From Natronolimnohabitans sp. A-GB9 (GTDB taxonomy: Archaea; Halobacteriota; Halobacteria; Halobacteriales; Natrialbaceae), in NCBI RefSeq assembly GCF_030848565.1, contig NZ_JAVDDV010000002.1, positions 124,001 through 188,000 of the forward strand: a DNA stretch of 64,000 nt, in the 5' to 3' direction. Position 1 is the first letter of the stretch. Every line of letters begins with the position of its first letter. Under the pieces are notes generated by a model. That model made no database searches. It was given only the letters and a program-made list of their open reading frames with translations, and was not told the DNA's origin. The position numbers were made by a program, and so were the translations under genes. This document shows, in pieces, positions 29,011 to 41,107 of the stretch.

Positions 29011-30246
29011 TCACGTGTCGGGATCGACGAGCAACGTGTTCAACGCGTCCGGGACCACGAGCACCTCGCTGCCGGACTCGAGTGCGTCGGCTACGTCGGC
29101 TTCGGCGTGCATGAGACAGTCCTCGACGACCGTGGGCGCCTCGCTGTTCGTGATATAGAGGTCGTGCTCCCGGAGGACGCGGGCGACGACGAACGCCCGC
29201 TGGGCGCCGGGCTCGTACCCCTCGCGCATCGCTCGATAGAGGGTTTCAGCGTCGTTCGCCCCGCTCAGTCGGCGATAGAATCGTTGCTCGCCGGTGCCGT
29301 CGCCGACGCCTTCCGGCAGCGCGGCGGGAACGACGAGTCGGCCACCCTCTCGGAGCGGATTTCGATCCCCGAGGGCGACGTAGGTCGCCCCGCGGGTCGC
29401 CTGGTAGAGGTTCGCGTCCTTGGGCGCGCCGACGCCACAGACCACGGCGTCGAACTCGCGATCGATCGGGACCGAGAGGGCGTCTCGAGCGATGGCAGCG
29501 AGTTCGCGGACGACACGCCGGCCGTCCCCTGCGCGAACACCGAGGACGCCCGCAGGGCCGTGGGTGAGGTTGACCGAGAAGTCCAGGCCGGCGAGGTCGC
29601 CGGCCGCGTCGAGCGTCTCGCGGAACGGGTTCCCCTCGACGCGGCCCAGTCGGACACCTTCGCGGGCGAGCATCTCTGGGCCGTGCGTGTATCGGATGAG
29701 CGACTCGCCCCCGGCGCCGATGACGACGGTCTTCGCGCCGCCGCTGAAGCCCGCATACTGGTGGGGCTCGACGACACCCGTCGAGAGCACCGTGTCGGCG
29801 TCGGCGACCGGTTCGCCGATCTCGACGGGGACCTCGCCGTCGGCTACCGTCCCCACCACCACGACCGATTCGGGATCGTGATTCGCCGCCAGATCAGCAT
29901 GCGGACCGAGCATCGCCTCGATCTCGTCGTCGGTCATCGGTCGATGGAGACCGAGCCCGATCACGACCGTCACCTGCTCGCGCTCGATTCCACACGCCGC
30001 GAGGCGCTCGAGCAAGACGTCAAGCAGGATATCGTCGGGCGCCTTGCGAGTCACGTCGGTGACGACGATCGTGACGTCGTCGTCGGGGTCGACTCGGGTC
30101 GAAAGCGGCGCTCCGAGCGGGTCCTCGAGCGCCCGCTGGGCGGCCTCGCGAACGTCGACCGGTTCGCCGCCCGGCGGGTCGGCGACCGTCGTCGGACAGT
30201 CCGGCACGGCGGGATCGATCGTTCCGGCTCCGAGTGGTATTTCCAT
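29011..30246 (-). CDS. LarA-type nickel-dependent racemase family protein
   Basis: 411 residues. The residues that act in lactate racemase are in place: His101 in IGLGLHRPMT, His162 and Lys172 in EPHQYAGFSGGAKTVV, ten apart as in Lactiplantibacillus LarA (His174/Lys184). The N-terminal domain carries DVTIVVTDVTRKAPDD and the middle ESLIRYTHGPEML with RVEGNPFRE. LarA enzymes racemise or epimerise 2-hydroxyacids using a nickel-pincer nucleotide; some members use other substrates. The pincer-making LarB/C/E genes are not in this window. Function as lactate racemase is likely by motif but not proven. Confidence 0.87.
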   Translation of the reverse strand: MEIPLGAGTIDPAVPDCPTTVADPPGGEPVDVREAAQRALEDPLGAPLSTRVDPDDDVTIVVTDVTRKAPDDILLDVLLERLAACGIEREQVTVVIGLGLHRPMTDDEIEAMLGPHADLAANHDPESVVVVGTVADGEVPVEIGEPVADADTVLSTGVVEPHQYAGFSGGAKTVVIGAGGESLIRYTHGPEMLAREGVRLGRVEGNPFRETLDAAGDLAGLDFSVNLTHGPAGVLGVRAGDGRRVVRELAAIARDALSVPIDREFDAVVCGVGAPKDANLYQATRGATYVALGDRNPLREGGRLVVPAALPEGVGDGTGEQRFYRRLSGANDAETLYRAMREGYEPGAQRAFVVARVLREHDLYITNSEAPTVVEDCLMHAEADVADALESGSEVLVVPDALNTLLVDPDT

Positions 30247-31938: not shown

Positions 31939-34689
31939 CTACGTTCGTGCCCACTCGAGCATCCGCTCGTAGACGGGATCCGACGCCAGCGCGGTCGAAT
32001 CGCCGACGAGGACGAGCGCGCGTTTCGGACGGGTCAGGGCGACGTTGATCCGTCGGTAGTCCTCGAAGATCGGCCCCTCGAGCGAGCCGGTCGCAGTAAA
32101 GGAGACGACGATAAGCTCCTGGCTCGAGCCCTGGAACCGGTCGACCGTGTCGACGGTGACGGCCGCCGGCACGTGTTTTTCGATCTCCGAGACCTGTGCC
32201 CGGAAGGGTGCGATGACGCCGATCTCGGATCGCTCGAGTCCTGCGTTCTCGTAGGTGTCGATCAGGTCGGCGATCCGTGTGGCCTCCTCGCTGTCGGTGT
32301 ACTGGCCGTCGTCGCCGGGGACGTCGACGAACGCGACCGGATCCCGCAGTTCCTCGGGGAGTGCGTCGCGGGAGACGCCCTCGAGGTCGTCCAGCGTCCG
32401 GGCGGCGACCTCGGGCTCGGCGGGCCGTAGTTGTCCGTCGTAGAACTCCCGGGAGGCAAACGCCTGAATGCGCTGGTTCATCCGGTACTGGCGATCGAGC
32501 ATGACGCCCGCGTTCGGATGCAGGTCGACGAGCCGTTCGAACAGCGACTCGGTGAGGTCGGCCGCTCGCGGTTCGTCGCCGCCCTCGGATCGGACGACCG
32601 GCGGCAACTGCTCGTGGTCGCCGACGAGGACGAACCGGTCGGCGAGGTTGATCGCCGCACAGGTTCCCGGCTCGGTCAGCTGGGCAGCCTCGTCGACCAG
32701 TGCGACGTCGAAGGCTTGCTCTTTCATCACTCGCGAGCCACAGGTCGCCGTCGTCGCTGCCACGACCTGTGCGTTCTCGAGTTCGGCGAGTCGACCTTCG
32801 GGGTCGCCGGCGCGCTCGAGACGATAGGGCTCCATATCGTCGCGGACGCCGCTTTCGGAGCCGACGCGGACGACCCGTTCGGTGTCGACGACTCCTTCGA
32901 GTTGCTCGAGCAGCGCCTCGAGGGCGTTGTCGACCGCACGGTTCGTAAACGCCGACAGCAGGACGCGGTCGCCGCGCTCGACCAACGCAGTGATCGCGCG
33001 GGCGATGGTGTAGGTCTTGCCGGTTCCCGGCGGGCCGTGAATCAACGCACAGTCTTGAGCGCCGACGGCTTTCCGGACGGCCTCGTTCTGGGCCGCGTTG
33101 TTGTCGATAAACGTCTCTTCGGGGTGATCGAACGTCGGCGTTTCACGGCCGAACAGCACGTCCTTCCGCCGTTCGTCGCCTTTCAGGAGACAGTCGTGTA
33201 ACGCGGTGAGCAGGCGATCGGTCGTCAGTTCGGAGGGGTAGACGTCCAAACGCGTCACTGCGACCGGCTCGTCGGCCGTCAACACGACCTCCTCGTCCAA
33301 TCGCTCGATACGCGCGAGTTCGGAATCCCCTCGGACGGGATGGCCGTTGCTCGCAAGCACCAGATCCCCCTCCCGGAGTTTCGAGGTCGCGCCGCCGGTC
33401 CGGCGAGCGCGCAGTTCCCACCGCCCCTCCTCGAGTTCCCGTTTCCCGACGAACTCGAGGTCGATCAGTGCGCGGTCGTCGTCGGCTCGCTCCTGGGCGT
33501 CTTGCTCCCAGAGCTTGGCGTACTCGCGGTGGACCGCCCGGCGTTCCTCCTCGATCGCGTGATAGAATCGCTCGAAGTACTCGCGTTCGTCCTCGGGGAG
33601 CGGCGTCCCGATCTGGCCGGCCTTGGACTCCTGGTCGAGCCGACCCGAGACGACCATACAGGTGTCCTGTTCGAAGCAGTACTCGCATTTCGCGTCGCCC
33701 TCGTAACCCGTCGGAACGTCGCCGGCGACCTCCATCGCAGCGATCTCGTTGCGCACTCGGACGACGAACTGCAGGAGTCCCTCGCCCATCGAGAACTCCT
33801 TTGCCGGAGTGAGATCGCCGGTCTCCTCGTTGCGGTCGAGCGCCGAGTTCTTCGTGTACAGAAGCGTCCCGGTGTCGACCGAGCCGCCGTGTTCCTCGAG
33901 CAACAGCGCGTAGCAGGCGGCCTGGACCTTGTCCTTGAATCGGGGTTCTTTCTTGAGGTTCTTCCCCGTCTTGAGCTCGACCGGTGCGCCACGCCGGATC
34001 GCGTCGGCCCGGCCCCGGATGCCGAACGTCTCGCTGATGAGCAGTTGCTCGGAGCGCCAGTCGTCTTCCGCCGTGAGTCTGCCCTGCTCGAGCCAGCCCT
34101 CGATGGCTTTCGCGTTTTCGCGGACGTCCTCGGCGACGGCGTCGGGCGTCTCGCCCAGCAGGCCGAGTTCGAGGCCGCGTTCCTCGACGCGGGCGTCGAT
34201 CGACGCCGCTAACTCTCGGCCCCGGAGCAGGTCACCGAACACCTCGTGGACGAGCGTCCCCTTCACGACGGGGTAGTTAAGCGGGATTCCCGAGAGCTTG
34301 TTTAGATAGTAGAGGCGGGGACACTCGACCCAGCTACGGATCGACGTCACGTTTACCAGAAAGCTCGGCTCGACGACGACGTAGGAGTCGCCCGTCGTCG
34401 AGTACTGAGTCTCGCCCCGGTATTCGTCTTCCTCGGCGTCGGTGACCAGCAGCTCCATCCCCGGCTCGAGCAGCTCGGCCGACTCGGTCCACTTACCCCA
34501 CAGCGTCACCGTCGTAGTCGCCTCCGTGGCGGCCGTCGGCTCGGCGACGCCGCCGTCTCGAGCCACCGTTTCGGGATCGTCGCTCTCGTCGGTGCGGTTC
34601 AACGGCACCTCGGCGAGGTCGCTCTCGCCGTAGCTCGTCGACACCGTCCGCATCTCGACCTCGCCCGCGACGGTTCCGCGTACGTACAC
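31939..34689 (-). CDS. Dna2-like nuclease-helicase (Cas4-type nuclease plus SF1 helicase)
   Basis: 916 residues. After an OB-like N-terminus, residues about 115-360 form a Cas4/PD-(D/E)XK nuclease with a cysteine-framed iron-sulfur site: SWVECPRLYYLNKLSG near 120 and CEYCFEQDTC near 334, and the catalytic ELKTGK. The C-terminal half is a superfamily 1B helicase: IHGPPGTGKTYTIARAI near 551 (Walker A), VALVDEAAQLTEP near 664 (motif II), and QGSSQELIVVSFTA then NVALTRPKRALVLVGD (motifs V/VI). This domain order matches archaeal Dna2, which processes 5' flaps and DNA ends in replication and repair. GTG 34689 is the start. Confidence 0.9.
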   Translation of the reverse strand: MYVRGTVAGEVEMRTVSTSYGESDLAEVPLNRTDESDDPETVARDGGVAEPTAATEATTTVTLWGKWTESAELLEPGMELLVTDAEEDEYRGETQYSTTGDSYVVVEPSFLVNVTSIRSWVECPRLYYLNKLSGIPLNYPVVKGTLVHEVFGDLLRGRELAASIDARVEERGLELGLLGETPDAVAEDVRENAKAIEGWLEQGRLTAEDDWRSEQLLISETFGIRGRADAIRRGAPVELKTGKNLKKEPRFKDKVQAACYALLLEEHGGSVDTGTLLYTKNSALDRNEETGDLTPAKEFSMGEGLLQFVVRVRNEIAAMEVAGDVPTGYEGDAKCEYCFEQDTCMVVSGRLDQESKAGQIGTPLPEDEREYFERFYHAIEEERRAVHREYAKLWEQDAQERADDDRALIDLEFVGKRELEEGRWELRARRTGGATSKLREGDLVLASNGHPVRGDSELARIERLDEEVVLTADEPVAVTRLDVYPSELTTDRLLTALHDCLLKGDERRKDVLFGRETPTFDHPEETFIDNNAAQNEAVRKAVGAQDCALIHGPPGTGKTYTIARAITALVERGDRVLLSAFTNRAVDNALEALLEQLEGVVDTERVVRVGSESGVRDDMEPYRLERAGDPEGRLAELENAQVVAATTATCGSRVMKEQAFDVALVDEAAQLTEPGTCAAINLADRFVLVGDHEQLPPVVRSEGGDEPRAADLTESLFERLVDLHPNAGVMLDRQYRMNQRIQAFASREFYDGQLRPAEPEVAARTLDDLEGVSRDALPEELRDPVAFVDVPGDDGQYTDSEEATRIADLIDTYENAGLERSEIGVIAPFRAQVSEIEKHVPAAVTVDTVDRFQGSSQELIVVSFTATGSLEGPIFEDYRRINVALTRPKRALVLVGDSTALASDPVYERMLEWART

Positions 34690-34759: not shown

Positions 34760-34838
34760 TCCGGACTGCTGTCCCGATCGCCCGCCGATCGCCAGGGTGG
34801 GGGCGGCGATCGGTGGGCAGTGACGACAGGAGACCGTA
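34760..34838. repeat. Family B gene-end element, 79 bp, CCGATCGCC-hairpin variant
   Basis: Left end TCCGGACTGCTGTCCCGA, core CGCCGATCGCC ... GGCGATCGG, right end TGACGACAGGAGACCGTA. The next three bases are the TAA stop (minus strand) of the ATP-grasp gene. It matches 20511-20589 in length and hairpin. With the copy at 38310-38367 it brackets the ATP-grasp/AsnB-like pair. Confidence 0.8.
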
Positions 34839-36053
34839 TTACTCGTCGCTTTCCGATCCGACCCGTCTCGTCACCGCCCCCTCGAGTTCGGTCCTGACCT
34901 GCCGAAGGATCGGCCGGGGGTCGTCCAGATGTAGATAGTCGAAGTTCGGGACTCCGTAACACGAACGCAGGATCTCGGCCGTCCGGCCCGGCAGCGAGGG
35001 CCGCTCGACGAAGGGGGAATCCTCGCGGACGACGCTCACCAGGTGCTCGAGTTCGCCGTAGAGGTAGTGGGTGCCGACGCCGGCGTCGTAGCCGGGTTCG
35101 ATCAGGTCGGTCCGGTCGGTGGCCGCCAGCCAGTACCAGGTCGGGAAATCCGCGCCGGCGCGGGTCGCACACGCAAGCGACTGCCACATCCGCGGGTTGA
35201 TCTCGACGATCGAGAACTCGCCCGTCGCCGCGTCCCGAACGTACTCGATGCAGGCGAGGCCGTGCCACTCGAGTTCGTCGAGGATCGCCCGGCCGGCCTC
35301 CTCGAGTTCCGGAATGTCGACTGACTCCCGGAAGACGCCTCCACTACCGGTGTAGGAGTCGCCGCGAAGCTGGCGATGCTGGAACGTGCCCAGTGCCTCG
35401 CCGCGGTCGTACAGCGCTCCGAAGAGGAACTCCTCACCCTCGACGTACTCCTGGACGATCGGCTCGTGGCCCATCTTCTCCTGGAGCGCGTCGACGTCCG
35501 GCGTCTCGCCCGCCGGCACGTGTTCGACCGACTTGGCGATCGTCGAGTCCTCGAACGTGAACTCCTCGAGGTACGTATCGGTAAGGAGATTGTACCGGGA
35601 TTTGACGATCCTGTTGCCGCTCCAGTCGTCGACGTCGCCGAGCAGTTCCGTGTCCGGGATCGCAACCCCCGCCCGTTCCGCGGCGTCCGCGAGTCGCTTT
35701 CGGTCGTGAACCGATCGCAACGTCTCGAGGTCCGGAACGACGACGTCGACGTGGCGCTCGAACTCGTCGGCGTACTTCGCGAGGACGTATGGATCGTGTG
35801 GGCGGTGGGGGACGATCGTCCGAACGTCCGGCCGGGCGGCCAGGCCCAACAGCGCGTCCCTGTACGCCGGGAGATCGCTCGGCGGCGGGACCAGCACCGA
35901 CTCGTCACAGTACCGGGAGGCGGTGACGCTCAGGGACTCGTCGTCGACCGCGGCGATCGTATGGACGTCGCGGTCACCGAGCGATCTGACGGTCGCGTAC
36001 CCGTGTGGGTATCGCGATGCGGTGACGACGACGGCCTCGCGGTCTTCAGTCAA
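34839..36053 (-). CDS. ATP-grasp carboxylate-amine ligase
   Basis: 404 residues. An N-terminal Rossmann-like lobe (VVVTASRYPHGYATVRSLGD) is followed by an ATP-grasp fold: NRIVKSRYNLL, EPIVQEYVEGEEFLFGAL (residues about 196-213) and the metal-binding EINPRMWQSLACATR near 288. This is the carboxylate-amine ligase type (carbamoyl-phosphate synthase large chain-like), which activates a carboxylate as acyl phosphate for attack by an amine. It overlaps the AsnB-like gene by 8 bases and starts with TTG 36053, since no better start is seen. Together the two may make an amide or peptide bond on a shared substrate. A family B element abuts its TAA. Confidence 0.82.
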   Translation of the reverse strand: MTEDREAVVVTASRYPHGYATVRSLGDRDVHTIAAVDDESLSVTASRYCDESVLVPPPSDLPAYRDALLGLAARPDVRTIVPHRPHDPYVLAKYADEFERHVDVVVPDLETLRSVHDRKRLADAAERAGVAIPDTELLGDVDDWSGNRIVKSRYNLLTDTYLEEFTFEDSTIAKSVEHVPAGETPDVDALQEKMGHEPIVQEYVEGEEFLFGALYDRGEALGTFQHRQLRGDSYTGSGGVFRESVDIPELEEAGRAILDELEWHGLACIEYVRDAATGEFSIVEINPRMWQSLACATRAGADFPTWYWLAATDRTDLIEPGYDAGVGTHYLYGELEHLVSVVREDSPFVERPSLPGRTAEILRSCYGVPNFDYLHLDDPRPILRQVRTELEGAVTRRVGSESDE

Positions 36054-37962
36054 GATCGATCACCGTCGGTTGGAGACACCGCTCGAACGGATCGGTCGCG
36101 TGATCGTGTCGCGTCGTCGAATCGTCCTCGAGTACACACGCCGTCGCGGGCATCGTCAGGACAGTCAACAGCGTGTAGAGCTCGCCGACGCGGTCCTCGC
36201 CGCGACAGTGGGTCCGGTACAGCTCGCGTATCGCGTCGGCGTCCGGCCCGGGGAGCGCGTCGGCGAGATCGCCCTTCGCCTCGAGAACGTCGGTGGCGAA
36301 CCCGAACGAGCGAAGCAGTTCCGCGTCGTCCAGCCACGGGCCGTCGGTCAGGTACGGCTCCGGCGGTGACCGGGGTGAGACGTACTTCCGCCAGAACTCC
36401 GTCGCGTGTTCGCCGGCGTACGCGACCGGGAACGACCGCGAGAGCGAAACGCCGGTGCTCGCGTGCGGAATCGCCGCCAACTCGGGGGCCAGTCGTTCGA
36501 CAGCCCGGTCGACGAGGTTCCGTCGGAGCCGATACCGGATCGGCATCGACAGCGAGAGGTCGACGAGTCGGTCGTCGAGAAACGGCGTTCGGTACGGAAG
36601 CGTCTGGCGGAGTGCAGTGTGAAATCGCATATCGTCGTCGTTCGACAACGGATACAGATCGCCGTAGTAGACGAGTTCGTCGAGCGAGTCGTAGGTGACG
36701 CCGTGGTGGACGATACGGTCGCCGTCGCGGTAGATGTTCTCCTCGAGTACCGTCCGGAGATCAGTCGGGGCTTCGAAGTCGTCGTGGGCCCGCTCGAGCA
36801 GGCGATCGATGTAGTCGTCGATCGTCTCGACCGACCGCTCGACCGGCAGGGACACCGATCCCAGGGGACCGAGCGACGTCGTCGGCGACGGGATCCCGAA
36901 CCCATCGAACAGCGAGTCGGCGTACAGTCCCGACAGGAGTCCGTCGACCCGACTCGTGAGTTCGTCTTCGAAGCCGCTCGTATATGGCTGCGTAAACCAG
37001 CCGTTGAACGAGCCCGCCCATCGGTTGCGCTCGAGTGCGTCGATCCGGTACTGTGACCCCCGCTCGAGCAGTTCGAACTCGGCGTCAGCTGTGAGCGCGA
37101 CCCGTTCCGCAATGCGGGCCTCGCGGTTCATCCAGTCGTTCATGTGTAACGCCGTCGCCTCCTCGAGGCCGGCCAGTACGAGCCTGGAGTCGCTGCCCCC
37201 GGAGAGCAACACGCCGTAGTCGCGATCGTCTCGCGTCCACTCCTCGACGACCGTCCGGAACCGACGTGTGAACTCGTCGACGAACCACTCGAACGACTCG
37301 TCGCGCGGCCGGTATCGCGGCCGCCAGTACTGGTCGCTCGTCAGTTCGCCGTCGGCGAGCGAAAGCGTCGTGATCGTCCCGGGCTCGAGTTTCTCGATGC
37401 CTTCGAACGGCGTCGTTACGCCGAACGTTCGGCGAAAGGCGAGATACTCGTGGAGGTACGCCGGAGAGAACGCAGTGTCGATTGCTGGATGAAACGGGAG
37501 CGTCTGGACGTTCGTCGAGAAGACGAGCGTCTCGTCGTCCGGCCGCGTCCAGTAGATCGGTACCGTGCCGAGTCGATCGGTACACAACGAGAGTCGCTCA
37601 CGGTCCGCGTCGTACAGGAGCAACGCGAAGTTTCCGTTGAGTCCGCCCACGAAGTCGAGCCCCTCGCGTTCGTACCGTGACACACAGTACTGGGCGGGAT
37701 CGACGTCGGCGGGGCGGGCCTCGTACTGGCCGGATCGCGTTCCGTCGCTCGCGTCGGCTCCGTACACGTCACCGATCACCCAACAGCGGATCGATCCGTC
37801 ACTGGCCGCGTGAGGATCGTTCGAGGCTCGGTGTACCCGTGGTGCCGCCGCGATCGCCACGCCGTCAGTTGCGTACTGTATGCCGGCGTCGGACGGAAGC
37901 CAGTCGTCGAGTGTGTCCGCGGCCGAGCCGCCGGTGTGGACCACTCCGTGTGTGTATCGCAT
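36046..37962 (-). CDS. Asparagine-synthase-like protein lacking the glutaminase cysteine
   Basis: 638 residues. The C-terminal domain is an AsnB-type synthetase: GVLLSGGSDSRLVLAGLEE near residues 251-269 is the PP-loop, and the LPYRTPFLDDRLVDLSLSMP region is conserved. The N-terminal Ntn-fold lobe is recognisable (GLNGNFALLLYDADRERLSL near 107-126, CTDRLGTVPIYW). However the protein starts MRYTHG, not Met-Cys, so the cysteine needed for glutamine hydrolysis is missing. It may use ammonia, use another amine, or act as a cyclase/ligase as in lasso-peptide cyclases, or amidate a glycan uronic acid as in WbpS. It is translationally coupled to the ATP-grasp gene. ATG 37962. Confidence 0.82.
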   Translation of the reverse strand: MRYTHGVVHTGGSAADTLDDWLPSDAGIQYATDGVAIAAAPRVHRASNDPHAASDGSIRCWVIGDVYGADASDGTRSGQYEARPADVDPAQYCVSRYEREGLDFVGGLNGNFALLLYDADRERLSLCTDRLGTVPIYWTRPDDETLVFSTNVQTLPFHPAIDTAFSPAYLHEYLAFRRTFGVTTPFEGIEKLEPGTITTLSLADGELTSDQYWRPRYRPRDESFEWFVDEFTRRFRTVVEEWTRDDRDYGVLLSGGSDSRLVLAGLEEATALHMNDWMNREARIAERVALTADAEFELLERGSQYRIDALERNRWAGSFNGWFTQPYTSGFEDELTSRVDGLLSGLYADSLFDGFGIPSPTTSLGPLGSVSLPVERSVETIDDYIDRLLERAHDDFEAPTDLRTVLEENIYRDGDRIVHHGVTYDSLDELVYYGDLYPLSNDDDMRFHTALRQTLPYRTPFLDDRLVDLSLSMPIRYRLRRNLVDRAVERLAPELAAIPHASTGVSLSRSFPVAYAGEHATEFWRKYVSPRSPPEPYLTDGPWLDDAELLRSFGFATDVLEAKGDLADALPGPDADAIRELYRTHCRGEDRVGELYTLLTVLTMPATACVLEDDSTTRHDHATDPFERCLQPTVIDLD

Positions 37963-38309
37963 CCCTCGTCACCTCCTCGAGTCGAACGACGCTCGTTGAT
38001 CGACGGTCGACTGAAGTACGCGAGCCTGCATCATAGTCGACGGAGGGCTGGCTGCGGTATTTATTATAGATGTGATAGTACCGACGTGTTGTGTGAGTTC
38101 AGTGGTTGTGACAGGGATCGATCTCCATCACGAATCCGTAACCCGCTGAACGACCGTTCGAAAGCCGGTATTTCGATCGAGCGACACGACAGCTCGAGCG
38201 ACCGTCACACTGGAACGTCACGCTCATACTACGCCGCGAGGGGAACCATTTCACGAGCTAAAACTATTAGAAACAGTTTACATCCAGTTCATCGGGCGTC
38301 GAGGTGTCA
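37963..38309. other. Intergenic region upstream of the AsnB-like gene
   Basis: 347 bases without a convincing gene. It contains AT-rich patches (GTATTTATTATAGATGTGATAG near 38056-38078, and AAACTATTAGAAACAGTTT near 38260-38278, the second an inverted repeat). The first could be the promoter of the AsnB-like gene about 100 bases downstream on the minus strand. I looked here for a short precursor-peptide ORF and found none that stands out. Confidence 0.5.
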
Positions 38310-38367
38310 TACGGTCTCCCGTTGTCACGTCCCGCCGATCGGCGACATAGCGGGACAGCAGTCCGTA
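38310..38367. repeat. Family B gene-end element, 58 bp
   Basis: Left end TACGGTCTCCCGTTGTCAC, core CCGATCGGCGACATAGCG, right end GGGACAGCAGTCCGTA, directly followed by the TGA (minus strand) of the gene at 38368. It is shorter than the 79-bp form, with the same ends and a reduced hairpin. Confidence 0.75.
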
Positions 38368-38922
38368 TCAGTCCCCGTCCTCGATCGGCTCGCCCTCGAG
38401 ATACCGTCTCCCGCGGTCCGTGATCTCGTACTTGCCGCGGTCGACCCGTTTGACGAGTCCGTGCTCGGCTAACTCGTTCAATCGACGACTGACCGCCCCA
38501 CGACTCCGATCGATGTTCCGGGCGATCAGCGACGGCGTGAGCACGAGCCCGGCGGTCTCGAGTGTCTGAAGGATGTGCCCGTCCATCGGCGTCATCCATT
38601 CCGGTGGCGATCGGATCGCGTTCGGGTCGGTACAGAGAAAGACCGACCACTCCGTCCGTCGGAGACGGTTGTGCATCGGATCGTAGAGCCCGTACGCGAC
38701 GAGCAGCGCAGCCAGACCGTGGACGAAGTGAATCGCCGGACGATACGTCAGCTGTACGAGCGGATCGGCGAGGACGAACAGAAACAGTCCGACGAACGAG
38801 ACGGCGATCGGCGGCCGGGATCGAAGCTGGACTCGGTTCCGATACAGGAGGAGACAGAGGACGAGGCTGGCCAACACCCCGACGAAGAGATCGTACGCGA
38901 CGAGTACCGAGTGGTCGGTCAC
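38368..38922 (-). CDS. Membrane protein with C-terminal winged-helix domain
   Basis: 184 residues from GTG 38922. The first 90 residues hold three to four hydrophobic segments (YDLFVGVLASLVLCLLLY, IAVSFVGLFLFVLADPLVQL, FVHGLAALLVAYGLYD). Residues about 105-180 form a winged helix: HILQTLETAGLVLTPSLIAR, then SRGAVSRRLNELAEHGLVKR, and DRGKYEITDRGRRYLEG. So it is a membrane-bound putative transcription regulator, a pattern seen in several haloarchaeal small proteins. It overlaps the preceding gene by 4 bases (GTGA) and forms a two-gene unit with it. A family B element abuts its stop. Confidence 0.72.
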   Translation of the reverse strand: MTDHSVLVAYDLFVGVLASLVLCLLLYRNRVQLRSRPPIAVSFVGLFLFVLADPLVQLTYRPAIHFVHGLAALLVAYGLYDPMHNRLRRTEWSVFLCTDPNAIRSPPEWMTPMDGHILQTLETAGLVLTPSLIARNIDRSRGAVSRRLNELAEHGLVKRVDRGKYEITDRGRRYLEGEPIEDGD

Positions 38923-39212
38923 GTTCCCCCTCCGAAGTCGTGAAGCGTCAGGAAGAGCAGCGCCACGAGGACGAGAACGCTCGTATTGATTCCGCTTTTG
39001 AGAAGCCGTACGAACGGGACGTCACAGCCGACGAGCAAAACGAGTCCGTTCTGGACGGTAAACAGCGACATCACCAACAAGAGCCCAAACACGAGCGTTC
39101 CGATCGGCGTGCGACGAAAGACAGACCACAGCAGCAACGAGAGAAGCGTCGCACTCGTCCCCGTGATAACTGCAAAGAGGACCGAGGCCTCGTAGACGAG
39201 ACAATCGCTCAT
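38919..39212 (-). CDS. Small membrane protein, partner of the winged-helix membrane protein
   Basis: 97 residues, three hydrophobic segments: YEASVLFAVITGTSATLLSLLLW, IGTLVFGLLLVMSLFTVQNGLVLL and INTSVLVLVALLFLTL. It ends HDFGGGT, with the last codons overlapping the GTG of the membrane winged-helix gene. Its topology resembles the N-terminal half of its partner. Together they could form a membrane signalling pair, by context only. Start ATG 39212. Confidence 0.6.
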   Translation of the reverse strand: MSDCLVYEASVLFAVITGTSATLLSLLLWSVFRRTPIGTLVFGLLLVMSLFTVQNGLVLLVGCDVPFVRLLKSGINTSVLVLVALLFLTLHDFGGGT

Positions 39213-41079: not shown

Positions 41080-41107
41080 TACGGCCGAGTGACGACAGCA
41101 GTCCGTA
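41080..41107. repeat. Family B gene-end element, minimal 28-bp copy
   Basis: TACGGCCGAGTGACGACAGCAGTCCGTA keeps both outer ends but has lost the inner hairpin. The next bases are the TGA (minus strand) of the SRPBCC gene. Confidence 0.62.

Follow-up and report, generated by a model that had tools for sequence, protein, structure and literature searches.

That two enzymes can divide amide-bond formation between them is known from AslA/AsnH of Lactococcus lactis (PMC4155827) and from asnO/ngg of Sinorhizobium meliloti (PMC8070244). In L. lactis, peptidoglycan precursors are acted on by AslA, an ATP-grasp D-aspartate ligase, and then by AsnH, an AsnB-type enzyme that amidates the D-Asp (PMC4155827). 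The gene pair described here, compared by enzyme type and not by gene sequence, resembles AslA/AsnH in that an ATP-grasp and an AsnB-type enzyme would work in turn on an envelope precursor, and differs in that the lactococcal target is peptidoglycan, which is absent from haloarchaea. AsnH, moreover, takes glutamine in the usual way. The asnO-ngg genes for NAGGN share with the pair an AsnB-type gene placed directly 5' of an ATP-grasp-type gene; however, AsnO carries the Cys (MCG), and Ngg, a GNAT/ATP-grasp fusion, has no detectable similarity to the ATP-grasp enzyme. Among solved structures, the closest fold to the AsnB-like protein is that of the hydroxyamidotransferase TsnB9 (7ylz, Z 25.3), although this is a bacterial natural-product enzyme of 16% identity, and beta-lactam and carbapenam synthetases likewise share the AsnB fold and lack a functional glutaminase (structural Z 21-23), but at 14-19% identity and with other neighbours. 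PylC and the L-amino acid ligases (3vot, RizA) have the ATP-grasp peptide/amide ligase fold (Z ~24), yet at 13-16% identity substrates cannot be read from these. No description of the pair was found in open-access papers, most subscription journals lying outside the coverage of that search.

In the window, the whole 64,000-nucleotide stretch of Natronolimnohabitans sp. A-GB9 DNA that was analysed, the AsnB-like gene lies upstream of the ATP-grasp gene, and the 8-base overlap that an earlier note had read from the letters is borne out (Table 1). This overlap would couple the translation of the two genes, and the junction, GGTGATC...TTGA, is kept in Natrialbaceae relatives with overlaps of 8-11 bp. 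Against two relatives, dN/dS is 0.15-0.30 for the pair genes (0.19-0.30 for the AsnB-like gene) and therefore indicates purifying selection on both.

Table 1. Features of the gene pair and of related loci
Feature	Coordinates	Strand	Remarks
ATP-grasp carboxylate-amine ligase	34839..36053	-	404 aa, TTG start
AsnB-like protein	36046..37962	-	638 aa; dead class-II glutaminase domain and PP-loop synthetase domain
Gene overlap	36046..36053	-	8 bp; GGTGATC before TTG start; junction layout common to Natrialbaceae pairs
Mg-binding motif VEINPR, residues 283-288 of ATP-grasp	35190..35207	-	E284, N286, P287 and R288 invariant in 31 paralogues
His500 (IPHA)	36463..36465	-	At AsnB Lys449 or one column beside it (column uncertain by one); His in 93/101 members
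Asp349	36916..36918	-	Equivalent of E. coli AsnB Asp351; present in 100/101 members
PP-loop SGGSDSR, residues 254-260	37183..37203	-	98-100% conserved in 101 members; Arg260 100%
N-terminus MRYTHG	37945..37962	-	M-Cys in AsnB; Cys in 0/101 family members
Leaderless-type uORF	37969..38034	-	21 aa; stop within AsnB Shine-Dalgarno; start 34 nt after TATAATA box
TATAATA promoter-like element of two-gene operon	38062..38068	-	82-139 nt before start in 11/17 Natrialbaceae pair loci
Repeat TACGGACTGCTGTC	34760-34773; 38354-38367; 41094-41107; elsewhere		
Second Cys-less AsnB-like family	L172 5396-7150; L037 9013-10776; L181 9689-11404		

The AsnB-like protein belongs to the AsnB-type PP-loop synthetases, given that it lies above the gathering cut-off of PF00733 (44.8 bits against 21) and carries the SGGxDS motif; GATase_7 (PF13537) is matched at 43.4 bits against a cut-off of 25. 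A structure model (pLDDT 88) contains both AsnB domains and, besides TsnB9, matches AsnB (1ct9, Z 23.1) and beta-lactam synthetase (1jgt, Z 23.1) over its full length. The PP-loop SGGSDS and the start MRYTHG had been read correctly in the earlier note, as had the loss of the glutaminase Cys, which none of the 101 family members possesses; the other glutaminase residues are lost as well, C1, R49, N74 and D98 of the E. coli AsnB reference being unconserved in the family. The start is not mis-called, because an N-terminal Cys appears neither in the stop-to-stop translations of 22 relatives nor in the 101-member alignment. In that alignment most members carry Leu, His or Met in place of Glu348 of AsnB, beside Asp351, and none has Lys at AsnB position 449; with these two catalytic residues replaced, the chemistry of the AsnB-like protein could differ or be lost. 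Nevertheless, since the PP-loop, Asp351, Arg260 and His500 are kept while Glu348 and Lys449 are replaced, the residue pattern suggests a synthetase site that has been remodelled and still works rather than one that has decayed.

In a tree that includes the Cys-bearing E. coli AsnB, S. meliloti NAGGN AsnO and haloarchaeal AsnB, the Cys-less family is separated from these synthetases with 100/100 support, which places the AsnB-like protein outside the ordinary asparagine synthetases, as had been proposed. An ordinary asparagine synthetase is ruled out by this position, by the missing N-terminal Cys (0/101) and by a score of 97.4 bits against the curated cut-off of 267.1 for asparagine synthetase B (TIGR01536). 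Nearly all members of the family are from haloarchaea, the exceptions being a few in Thermoplasmata MAGs and one in a Salinivenus MAG. A viral origin of the pair was rejected, no AsnB relative having been found in viral contigs, and so was a defence system, neither enzyme having been matched in a PADLOC search. Haloarchaea also contain another AsnB-like family without the Cys, deeply separate from the first, with ELFGVFG at the N-terminus and sometimes in tandem with that first family.

The ATP-grasp protein scores barely above the cut-off of ATPgrasp_Ter (PF15632; 29.3 bits against 29.1), and its membership of the superfamily is given by this match together with the predicted fold and the Mg-binding E-N-P-R motif. 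Its AlphaFold model (pLDDT 93) matches 2pn1 (Z 27.4), PylC (Z 24.3) and the L-amino acid ligase 3vot (Z 24.3). Lys151 and Arg153 are invariant in the 31 paralogues, as are Glu284, Asn286, Pro287 and Arg288, and the enzyme should for this reason be active. The reading of both proteins as amide-bond-type ligases in the earlier note is supported. Many haloarchaeal ATP-grasp paralogues, 43-60% identical, have no AsnB neighbour.

The pair is present in 17 of 125 Natrialbaceae genomes, and all 17 ATP-grasp matches of at least 74% identity (74-90%) in those genomes adjoin an AsnB-like gene. Across 392 genomes of the order, the best 19 matches (at least 61% identity) all lie beside an AsnB-like gene, and those ranking below the best 19 have none adjoining, as far as the contigs allow; the proposal that the two genes are conserved neighbours elsewhere holds in both samples. 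Seven of the 19 pairs are convergent (tail-to-tail, as in Halobium salinum, L114, and HArc-gm2, L131) and the others are tandem. In a tree of 53 paralogues, one clade with 100% support comprises the 23 ATP-grasps that are linked to an AsnB-like gene, but their AsnB partners are scattered over several places of the AsnB tree, where monophyly of the partners is rejected (AU p = 1.6e-5), and the link has therefore survived rearrangement. On these comparisons, an AsnB partner that is always present while gene order, orientation and the lineage of the partner change can hardly be accounted for unless the two genes share a function; adjacency is in itself no proof of a common substrate. The pair occurs in at least five genomic contexts, with surroundings that vary between lineages, and is plasmid-borne in Haloterrigena turkmenica, H. 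salifodinae and Haladaptatus halobius; it is accessory and patchy in distribution. In the window, the minus strand beyond the ATP-grasp gene encodes a Dna2-like nuclease-helicase (31939-34689), a fusion of a Cas4/PD-(D/E)XK domain with an SF1 helicase, which adjoins the pair in some lineages only, and a homologue of the nickel-pincer racemase LarA (29011-30246), for which the LarAH5/6 malate racemase models score below cut-off.

Upstream of the operon, most pair loci of Natrialbaceae have the same uORF layout, and the encoded peptide is unconserved and lacks third-position bias. With its sequence free to change, translational coupling fits, and the uORF is probably a coupling device, not a precursor peptide. 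Among 835 small ORFs near 15 pair loci, no family is common across contexts except two upstream genes (38368-38922 and 38919-39212, minus strand) with their antisense shadows, the remainder being shared-synteny noise. Their products are a winged-helix protein anchored in the membrane and a small membrane protein, and both genes accompany the pair in three genomes: that of the window, one that is apparently Natronorubrum bangense (G135, locus L059) and one that is apparently Natronococcus pandeyae (G127, locus L060), the outer context of L060 being different. The "family B" repeats described on both sides of the pair do exist, in the window often directly after stop codons, but their flanking position is meaningless because the core motif occurs 284 times genome-wide at no more than one mismatch; a mobile-element boundary was rejected on the same ground.

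Within 5 kb of 97 AsnB-family loci, recurrent neighbours of the AsnB relatives are, by number of genera, ATP-grasp (12), Wzx-type flippase (11), sulfatase (9), GT4 (7), another glycosyltransferase (6), PF01663 type I phosphodiesterase (7), FemAB-type GNAT (7) and DegT aminotransferase (6). Flippases were seen 12 times near AsnB loci against about 2 expected for the 97; the expectation is an estimate from the flippase content of typical relative genomes (about 2-9 each), and the loci are not independent. The glycan enrichment rests on related genomes. For the pair itself there is a single glycan-cluster case, in which it is flanked by GT2, GT4 and GT2 genes (G238), and most Natrialbaceae pairs, that of the window included, sit among unrelated or housekeeping genes. 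At a further locus (L187), an ATP-grasp paralogue (58%) lies beside PF01663 phosphodiesterase and FemAB-type genes. In Halalkalicoccus and Haladaptatus, an AsnB-like gene heads an operon of overlapping AsnB-like, phosphodiesterase and FemAB-type genes, another uncharacterised amide-forming module; at L175 (7296-12998), and likewise at L173, L174, L176, L177 and L178, it comprises AsnB-like, PF01663 phosphodiesterase and FemAB-type GNAT genes with 4-base overlaps, often together with a DegT aminotransferase gene. Glycan modification, one of the candidate roles suggested by the earlier note, fits the gene neighbourhoods best.

It is suggested, with about an even chance of being right, that the pair is a dedicated two-enzyme amide-synthesis cassette that forms two successive ATP-dependent bonds on one small acceptor, most likely a surface-glycan precursor. 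The ATP-grasp enzyme would convert a carboxylate to an acyl phosphate and couple it to an amine, and the AsnB-like enzyme would form an acyl adenylate from a carboxylate and couple that in turn; since glutamine is unusable by a dead glutaminase, the nitrogen would come from free ammonia or from another amine as substrate. The small acceptor on which the two would work one after the other is most likely a group on the precursor of a surface glycan, either a sugar or an amino acid. The folds, the dead glutaminase site, the intact ATP sites and the obligate neighbourhood are observations; we infer that both enzymes are active and work on one common acceptor, to which the neighbourhoods, and these only, would give a link with surface glycans. 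A more specific possibility, less likely than not, is that haloarchaea have a hitherto undescribed counterpart of the bacterial AslA/AsnH system: an AsnB family with a dead glutaminase, in which its own conserved Arg260 and His500 replace the AsnB residues, and an obligately linked ATP-grasp clade would together add two amide bonds to the precursor of a surface glycan.

Other products have to be weighed against a glycan precursor. The pair might make an amidated dipeptide or an osmolyte, small and soluble, that resembles N-acetylglutaminylglutamine amide (NAGGN), the ligase forming the dipeptide and the AsnB-like protein amidating it: of the NCBIfam models, that of the NAGGN amidotransferase (TIGR03104) scores highest with the AsnB-like protein, the gene order in S. 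meliloti is the same (AsnO-type, then ATP-grasp type), and NAGGN is an osmoprotectant (PMC8070244) while the host is a halophile. This is unlikely, given that the TIGR03104 score of 102.7 bits is far under the cut-off of 570.1, that the pair is accessory and patchy with relatives in glycan clusters, and that AsnO, which retains MCG, groups with ordinary AsnB while Ngg has no significant similarity to this ATP-grasp; the last two observations reject orthology with the NAGGN genes. A secreted small molecule of siderophore-, beta-lactam- or peptide-like type, built by forming two amide bonds in turn, its tailoring genes lying elsewhere, would agree with the shared fold of the glutaminase-dead beta-lactam synthetase and CarA and with the plasmid copies of the pair, and two AsnB relatives lie by a monooxygenase that reads as siderophore-type; we consider it rather improbable, as the genes that are conserved alongside the pair include no exporter, no tailoring enzyme and no resistance gene. 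At the two loci concerned (L052, 5140-15221; L054, 7028-14951), Cys-less AsnB-like genes are near a putative lysine/ornithine N-monooxygenase and transport genes, possibly a siderophore cluster with AsnB-type amide synthesis.

It is also conceivable that the pair matures a ribosomal peptide encoded nearby, in the manner of lasso peptides or graspetides, as RiPP pathways employ both folds and the operon has a short ORF (37969-38034) ahead of it. The chance of this is slim indeed: that ORF is unconserved and free of codon constraint, no small ORF conserved across contexts adjoins the pair as a lasso precursor would, and, by profile score and not by tree, the AsnB-like protein reaches 60.2 bits against a cut-off of 525 for the lasso peptide cyclase (NF033535) and 88.5 against 816.9 for the XrtA/PEP-CTERM (WbpS-like) amidotransferase (TIGR03108). 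No ribosomal-peptide ATP-grasp model, and hence no graspetide ligase, was matched in a profile search at E <= 0.01, and peptide modification in the precursor sense, another suggestion of the earlier note, finds no support. Finally, the replacement of Glu348 and Lys449 besides the Cys could make the AsnB-like protein a pseudoenzyme, or an asparagine synthetase that depends on ammonia, and the pairing a case of operon hitch-hiking. This is very unlikely in view of the near-invariant PP-loop and Asp351, the conservation of Arg260 and His500 (93-100%), a dN/dS of 0.19-0.30 and a pairing that was re-formed or retained in opposite orientation.

In summary, the pair is a real, conserved and uncharacterised amide-forming unit whose folds are recognised, and which the database names 'asparagine synthase-related protein' and 'carboxylate--amine ligase' mask. 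Were the product instead a small molecule, the pair would be a compact two-gene biosynthetic unit that is directly testable. If the decoration of surface glycans is true, amide chemistry would be added to the archaeal envelope and the large Cys-less AsnB family would gain a function.
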